Assembly (NCBI GenBank): GCA_000419465.1
Contig: ATTB01000001.1
Coordinates: 1 to 64,000 of the forward strand
Reading direction: 5' to 3'
Length of the DNA: 64,000 nt
Source: an alpha proteobacterium SCGC AAA028-C07
GTDB taxonomy: Bacteria; Pseudomonadota; Alphaproteobacteria; Pelagibacterales; Pelagibacteraceae
Shown: positions 62,121-64,000 of the stretch, in pieces
How positions within the stretch are numbered: the stretch's first letter is position 1
Layout: every line of letters starts with the position of its first letter
Made by a program: the position numbers and the translations under genes
The notes under the pieces: generated by a model
The model's database searches: none
The model's input: only the letters and a program-made list of their open reading frames with translations
Told to the model about the DNA's origin: nothing

Positions 62121-62484
62121 TGCCAGTTAGTTGAATGGTAGCTTTGATATTTTCAAAGAGGAAAGTCTGGGCTCCACAAGATAACAGTGCCAGCTAATAG
62201 CTGGCGAGGGTGACCTCAGGGATAGTGCCACAGAAAATAAACCGCCTTATCAAGGCAAGGGTGAAAAGGTGTGGTAAGAGCACACCGGGTTTTTGGTAAC
62301 AAAAACCGCATGGAAAACCCCACTGGGAGCAAGACCAAATAGAAGCAACATGATTTAAATTTATTTAAATCTAGCCTAATCTTGGGTGAGTTGTTTGGGT
62401 TGGTTGCTCGAGTCTATTGGCGACAATAGACCTAGATAAATTACCGTTTTCAATGACAGAACCCAGCTTACAGACTAACTGGCA
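62121..62484 (+). ncRNA. rnpB: RNase P RNA (type A)
   Basis: GAGGAAAGTCTGGGCTCCAC core and CTTACAGACTAACTGGCA 3' end; perfect P1 TGCCAGTTAG/CTAACTGGCA. Confidence 0.97.
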
Positions 62485-62618
62485 ATTAAATAATCTTTCT
62501 TAAATTTTTATCTAATTATTTTAATTGATATTTACTAATTTTTTTTAGAACAAAATAAGAACAAAAATATTAAATTAATTATACTTTAAAAGCACTTCTC
62601 CATTGACTTACTATTATA

Positions 62619-62643
62619 TACCATGTTATCCCATGATAACCCA
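62619..62643. promoter_or_regulatory. candidate MraZ boxes upstream of mraZ-ftsZ
   Basis: TACCA-N5-TCCCA-N5-ACCCA (reverse complement TGGGT-N5-TGGGA-N5-TGGTA), exact 10-bp phase. Confidence 0.65.
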
Positions 62644-62704
62644 TAAATGATAAATATTAACTATATTAGTAATAAATTTATTGGAAATTTTTTTTTAAAA
62701 AAAA

Positions 62705-63145
62705 ATGTTTATATCAACGTTCGAAAACAAGTTAGACAAGAAAGGCAGAGTGTCAGTGCCAGCTAGCTTTAGATCTCATTTGTCATCATTAGGATACAAT
62801 AGCGTTGTTTGTTACCCTTCATTTACAAATTCATCAATTGAATTTTGCCCTCAAAGTAGAATTGAAAAATTAAGCGATAGCATAGACAGTCTTAGTCCCT
62901 TTGAAGAAAATAGAGACACATTTGCAACATCGATACTTGCAGACAGCTTTCAATTAAATTTTGACTCTGATGGAAGAGTAGTTCTTCCAAAAAAACTTTT
63001 AGATCATTCTGGAATTAAAGAAACAGTAGTTTTTGTAGGACAAGGAAAAACATTTCAAATGTGGGAACCTCAAAAGTTCTCAAAATTTAGAGAAGAAGCA
63101 AGAAAAAAAGCTAAGACATTAAGATCATATTTAAAATGGTCTTAA
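62705..63145 (+). CDS. mraZ: transcriptional regulator MraZ
   Basis: MFISTFENKLDKKGRVSVPASFRSHL, FDSDGRVVLPKKLLDHSGI; two AbrB/SpoVT halves. Confidence 0.96.
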   Translation: MFISTFENKLDKKGRVSVPASFRSHLSSLGYNSVVCYPSFTNSSIEFCPQSRIEKLSDSIDSLSPFEENRDTFATSILADSFQLNFDSDGRVVLPKKLLDHSGIKETVVFVGQGKTFQMWEPQKFSKFREEARKKAKTLRSYLKWS

Positions 63146-63179: not shown

Positions 63180-64000
63180 ATGACAATAAAAATAAACGTA
63201 CCAGAATTAAGAGAATTAAAACCTAGAATAGTTGTTCTAGGAGTAGGAGGAGCAGGCGGTAACGCTATTAACAACATGATAGACTGTGGAGTTCAGGGTG
63301 TTGAATTCGTTGCAGCAAATACTGACGCGCAAGCTTTAAAGCACAATAAAGCTTCATGCAAAATGCAACTTGGAACTAATTTAACTAGAGGACTTGGAGC
63401 TGGAGCAAAATCCGATATCGGACAAGCAGCAGCAGAAGAATCGTTAAATGAATTAATAAATCTTTTGCAAGGTGCCAACATGGTTTTCATTACTGCTGGG
63501 ATGGGCGGTGGAACAGGAACAGGCGCTGCACCAGTAATTGCTAGAGCAGCTAAAGATTTAAATTTATTAACAGTAGCAGTGGTAACAAAGCCTTTTATTT
63601 TTGAAGGTCCCGGAAGATTAAAAGCCGCTGAAAGAGGTTTGGAAGAATTAAAAAAATATGTTGATACTAGCATTATAATTCCTAATCAAAATTTATTTAA
63701 AGTTGCTAACGAAAAAACTACTTTCCCTCAGGCATTTAAAATGGCCGATAATGTTTTAATGCAAGGCGTTAGAGGAATAACAGATTTAATTGTTAAGCCA
63801 GGTCTTATAAATCTAGATTTTGCTGATATTGAAACAGTAATGAAGGGTATGGGCAAAGCTATGATGGGAACTGGAGAGGCAGAGGGAGATAAGAGAGCAG
63901 TAATGTCTGCAGAAGCAGCTTTAGCCAACCCTTTAATTGATGATTATTCATTAAAAGGAGCGAGAGGTCTTCTTATTAATATTACTGGTGGTAACGATAT
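63180..64000 (+). CDS. ftsZ: cell division protein FtsZ, partial (3' end outside window)
   Basis: Reads [34 protein letters not shown]...[21 protein letters not shown]; open to window end, so missing from the ORF track. Confidence 0.97.

Follow-up and report, generated by a model that had tools for sequence, protein, structure and literature searches.

The 64-kb window (the whole stretch of DNA that was analyzed, 64,000 nt) closes with mraZ and the beginning of ftsZ, preceded by an AmpD-like amidase gene and the RNase P RNA gene; the same mraZ neighborhood has been recorded in Pelagibacter ubique (PMC2704228). Three short repeats, referred to below as boxes 1 to 3, lie in the mraZ promoter region, and the features at the locus are the following:

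62123 to 62486, plus strand: RNase P RNA gene (RF00010, 305.8 bits)
62603 to 62608, plus strand: putative -35 element of the mraZ promoter, TTGACT (61 of the 63 family loci have TTGAC 17 to 19 nt ahead of box 1)
62620 to 62623, minus strand: box 1, ACCA on the plus strand and TGGT on the minus strand, a conserved degenerate form
62624 to 62629, plus strand: candidate -10 element, TGTTAT, between boxes 1 and 2, predicted at a spacing of 15 nt
62630 to 62633, minus strand: box 2, CCCA on the plus strand and TGGG on the minus strand, invariant in 63 of 63 family loci
62640 to 62643, minus strand: box 3, CCCA on the plus strand and TGGG on the minus strand, invariant in 63 of 63 family loci
62705 to 63145, plus strand: mraZ, the presumed regulator binding the array (PF02381, E = 7e-21)
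63180 to 64000, continuing past the window, plus strand: ftsZ (PF00091/PF12327), 34 bp behind mraZ

These domain matches confirmed the identities that an earlier, sequence-only reading of the window had given to mraZ and ftsZ. PF02381 is matched in two stretches of MraZ, and the D-x-x-x-R loops of the two domains, D11-x-K-G-R15 and D87-x-x-G-R91, are invariant. The structural model, which is of moderate confidence (pLDDT 62), has the MraZ fold (E values down to 5.8e-10, TM score of 0.72), and its best structural matches are the Mycoplasma MraZ alone and promoter bound (9r4j and 9sz7). The protein is an ordinary MraZ. It differs from MraZ proteins outside the Alphaproteobacteria at many sites, some of them beside the loops, and class-specific residues include K9 versus N/S and E/D89 versus A/Q. 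Its nearest MraZ matches (97 to 99% identity) belong for the most part to Fonsibacter assemblies and to SAR11-like single cells; on this basis, the genome is that of Candidatus Fonsibacter or a very near relative, a freshwater SAR11.

The plus strand reads ccATTGACTTACTATTATATACCATGTTATCCCATGATAACCCATAAATG from 62600 to 62649, and the repeat stretch that follows the TTGACT at 62603 reads TACCATGTTATCCCATGATAACCCA (62619 to 62643). The sequence-only reading had placed TACCA at 62619 to 62623, TCCCA at 62629 to 62633, and ACCCA at 62639 to 62643, 62 to 86 bp upstream of the mraZ ATG and just past a TTGACT at 62603; the repeats match the sequence exactly, the hexamer is present as described, and the distance is correct, with the ATG at 62705. 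The ACCA/CCCA/CCCA cores (62620 to 62643) are in exact 10-bp phase and begin 17 bp past the start of TTGACT. Taken as at least three direct repeats with a TGGG-type core at 10-bp spacing, they agree at 11 of 12 bases. Since the 10-bp units are short and one box of the three is imperfect, a chance run of repeats in AT-rich DNA could be suspected. However, TGGG-N6-TGGG-N6-TGG has a single match in the 64-kb window, and 100 shuffles gave none; the best three-box score in the 217-bp intergenic stretch is 11/12, and not one of 20,000 dinucleotide shuffles of this stretch, scored on both strands, reaches it (the maximum, 10, was attained 6 times). The array is the sole copy in the 846-kb draft genome; the sites that come closest to it there are scattered and reach 10/12 (two mismatches). 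On the basis of the shuffles and the genome scan, a chance origin was rejected, and with the full conservation in 63 relatives described below, its probability is negligible.

The array pattern also occurs exactly once in each of 16 near-complete Pelagibacteraceae genomes, and where the coordinates of these single copies were compared, they lie just upstream of mraZ. For example, the array is at 789411 to 789434 in G005, with mraZ at 788909 to 789346 on the minus strand, and at 499093 to 499116 in G009, with mraZ at 499144. No second genomic target of the array type was found in the draft genome or in the 16 near-complete relatives.

Conservation of the 10-bp phased CCCA repeats upstream of mraZ in related genomes, which had been suggested as a check, was borne out in all 63 Pelagibacteraceae mraZ loci examined. 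The phase is the same throughout, the distance from array to start codon is 42 to 88 bp, and 11 of the 12 core bases (CCA/CCCA/CCCA) are invariant; the first base of box 1 alone varies (C, 60%; A, 40%). Box 1 had been described as degenerate. The ACCA form is real, but it does not reflect decay: it recurs in 25 of the 63 loci, and because only its first base varies, it is a stable variant. In the sister family within the Pelagibacterales (L188 to L201), four or five CCCA boxes in 10-bp phase precede mraZ, versus three here. The pattern of conservation also bears on the idea that the repeats act as RNA, for instance through a GTTATC-CCAT-GATAAC hairpin (62625 to 62640) in the leader transcript. 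A 6-bp inverted repeat does span box 2 in the window, and long mraZ leaders are known in some Alphaproteobacteria (PMC5089854), but in relatives the spacers vary freely, which destroys the inverted repeat and leaves the CCCA boxes unchanged; furthermore, the array is located at the -10 element and is probably largely upstream of the transcript. The hairpin was set aside because of the variable spacers, and a role as RNA is highly improbable.

Between boxes 1 and 2, Pelagibacteraceae relatives have a TANNAT-like hexamer at 15 to 17 nt from TTGACN, so that the -10 element is likely to sit inside the array. An alternative hexamer in the window, TTATCC (62626 to 62631), would give a spacing of 17 nt. 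A generic promoter scan did not report the mraZ promoter, which was missed because its -10 element is poor; in this genus, the -10 is weak and the spacing is short (15 nt). The distance from the end of the RNase P RNA gene to box 1 is 134 bp, and transcription of this gene may read through into mraZ.

The sequence-only reading had likened the array to the TGGGN-N5 direct repeats of the gammaproteobacterial MraZ operator. The likeness holds for the 10-bp TGGG direct repeats but not for the layout, which departs from the canonical E. coli/Burkholderia arrangement in that the array is on the reversed strand, has A instead of G before TGGG, and lies over the -10 element. Orientation was surveyed in two separate samples of alphaproteobacterial mraZ promoters outside the Pelagibacteraceae, one of high-scoring (n = 28) and one of low-scoring (n = 20) MraZ matches. 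CCCA on the coding strand gave the better array in 26/28 and 20/20 of these (46/48 combined), whereas TGGG on the coding strand gave the better array in 28/30 and 19/20 of other Pseudomonadota (one tie; 47/50 combined). E. coli K-12 (L032, NC_000913) likewise has TGGG on the coding strand, with the promoter sequence TGGGAAATTGTGGGGCAAAGTGGG. Two of the 28 alphaproteobacterial loci sampled, L111 and L125, have no clear array. The contrast (Fisher P of ∼1e-11 in the first sample, uncorrected for shared ancestry) may stem from one ancestral event. On the TGGG strand, A precedes TGGG in 83% of the alphaproteobacterial boxes, whereas 90% of the others have G there. GTG is the MraZ core described for E. 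coli, Bacillus, Burkholderia, and mycoplasmas, whereas the base at -1 here is A. The distance from TTGAC, where found, to the first box of the best triple is mostly 16 to 17 nt in the Alphaproteobacteria versus 28 to 29 or 37 to 39 nt in the others. The array hence appears to be a variant layout, reversed, with ATGGGAT in place of GTGGG and shifted over the -10 element, that is the standard form in the Alphaproteobacteria. It had been feared that boxes on the strand opposite to mraZ might be incompatible with binding; this objection fails because nearly all sampled Alphaproteobacteria have the reversed array, and the reversed orientation as an argument against MraZ was rejected. Some loci outside the Alphaproteobacteria carry a second array in the CCCA orientation, ∼210 to 270 bp upstream of mraZ in L144, L149, L155, and L157 and likewise present in L223, L224, L235, and L239, possibly the MraZ operator of a divergent gene.

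The presence of the array follows that of mraZ. Alphaproteobacterial genomes with mraZ have an array scoring at least 11/12 in 22/28 and 18/20 cases (the two samples), and among 30 alphaproteobacterial genomes lacking a Pfam MraZ match, only L163 and L171 have one at this threshold within 900 bp before rsmH. L163 contains a MraZ-like reading frame missed by Pfam. L171, a small genome in which mraZ was not detected, has a perfect 12/12 array before rsmH; its mraZ may have been lost or be too diverged. TTTCCC-type repeats precede rsmH in three genomes of the alphaproteobacterial family f11 without a Pfam MraZ match (L177, L182, and L186) and may represent another variant, paired with a diverged MraZ. 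The array could instead serve another regulator of division genes, given that CenR is enriched at the Rhodobacter mraZ promoter (PMC9275681) and that our literature search found neither a footprint nor other binding data for any alphaproteobacterial MraZ. Such a regulator is nonetheless very unlikely: the CenR enrichment occurs without a CenR motif (PMC9275681), each genome has one array, near mraZ, the array is mostly absent where mraZ is absent, and the 10-bp TGGG architecture is common to known MraZ sites.

Downstream, the gene order is mraZ-ftsZ-rsmH-ftsI-murE-murF-mraY-murD-ftsW-murG-murC-murB-ddl-ftsQ-ftsA-lpxC, with several of the mur, ftsW, ftsA, and lpxC names resting on sequence inspection and position. 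The ftsZ gene is not at its usual place between ftsA and lpxC but second, after mraZ, and one ftsZ was detected in the genome (a draft, 76% complete). It is next after mraZ in 62/63 Pelagibacteraceae loci, the remaining locus ending at a contig edge, and in 13/14 loci of the sister family, where one contig ends too early; in 23 other alphaproteobacterial loci, rsmH is next after mraZ where callable. The shift of ftsZ from ftsA/lpxC to mraZ/rsmH is seen in this genome and throughout the Pelagibacterales loci examined.

Judged from their sequence, the three repeats are almost certainly a docking site for MraZ, and three findings speak strongly for the earlier proposal of an MraZ operator ahead of mraZ-ftsZ: the conservation of the array (63/63 loci in the family, 46/48 in the class), its single copy per genome, and its loss together with mraZ. 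We infer that the array is the MraZ operator in its alphaproteobacterial, reversed form, at which MraZ binds the putative promoter and represses its own operon, a reading that we hold to be very probably correct. The MraZ ring would grip the three TGGG-type boxes, which are one helical turn apart on the same face of the DNA. The operator would be reversed relative to the gene, composed of ATGGGAT boxes, and cut to three boxes in the Pelagibacteraceae. With boxes on either side of the putative -10 element and the presumed start site, MraZ on the DNA would be expected to obstruct RNA polymerase, and the reversal is compatible with such a block because DNA-binding proteins bind sites either way round. 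Repression would extend over mraZ, then ftsZ, then the rsmH-ftsI-mur genes. By analogy with mycoplasmas and E. coli, the ring would cover the -10 and the start, and ftsZ would be the first gene after mraZ to be repressed; its place directly behind mraZ should bring the only ftsZ detected under early control by MraZ autorepression.

MraZ might also bind the array and activate the promoter, as claimed for Mycoplasma gallisepticum. An activator role in mycoplasmas is cited in PMC7761207, and contacts with RNA polymerase might in principle be altered by the reversal and by the shift in position. Yet the boxes overlap the likely -10 and start, the usual place of a repressor, the E. coli protein reportedly represses its own promoter (cited in PMC7761207), and in Mycoplasma genitalium deletion of mraZ derepresses ftsZ, raising its level (PMC8475190). 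Activation is therefore improbable, and repression of the operon by MraZ remains the preferred reading. As to its history, it seems somewhat more probable than otherwise that in the Alphaproteobacteria the whole operator was flipped relative to its gene, its box went from GTGGG to ATGGGAT, and its position shifted ∼20 bp upstream onto the -10 element, in step with a distinct alphaproteobacterial MraZ subfamily, and that ftsZ later came to lie directly behind mraZ in the Pelagibacterales, which would close a compact feedback loop between MraZ and FtsZ.

Few bacterial transcription factors are as widespread as MraZ, and SAR11 cells, which are poor in regulators, are among the most abundant in water. 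To our knowledge, MraZ sites are little described outside E. coli, Burkholderia, Corynebacterium, and mycoplasmas. The class-wide reversal, with matching changes in box and promoter position, amounts to a natural experiment on DNA reading and repression by the MraZ ring, and in SAR11 the findings suggest a circuit in which one regulator would act through one operator on the sole ftsZ detected. Our search of the literature on MraZ with SAR11 returned a synteny note only; the MraZ boxes were reportedly defined in a study of E. coli MraZ, and prior notice of the reversal is possible.

The MraZ operator of the E. coli mra promoter is likewise built of three TGGG boxes, phased at 10 bp and placed in the promoter of mraZ. 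Its boxes have TGGG on the mraZ coding strand, mostly preceded by G, and follow the -10, whereas the array here has CCCA on the coding strand, has A before TGGG (on the TGGG strand), and spans the -10. Published work describes an MraZ octamer bound to three 10-bp repeats, as well as repression by MraZ of the dcw cluster, ftsZ included (PMC5282649, PMC8475190, PMC7761207). In the Mollicutes, the site bound by the mycoplasma MraZ octamer, (AAAGTGKN3)3, likewise offers three or four 10-bp repeats to an octameric ring before a short division cluster ending in ftsZ (PMC5282649); its core is GTG versus ATGGGAT here, and the MraZ proteins share only ∼20 to 25% identity (structures 9r4j and 9sz7). Burkholderia cenocepacia likewise has 10-bp repeats at the mraZ promoter, on a fragment bound by MraZ in EMSA, with the dcw operon downstream (PMC7761207). 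There, however, the repeats are four GTG units downstream of the -10, as in E. coli, and ftsZ is the 15th gene (PMC7761207), whereas here it is the second.
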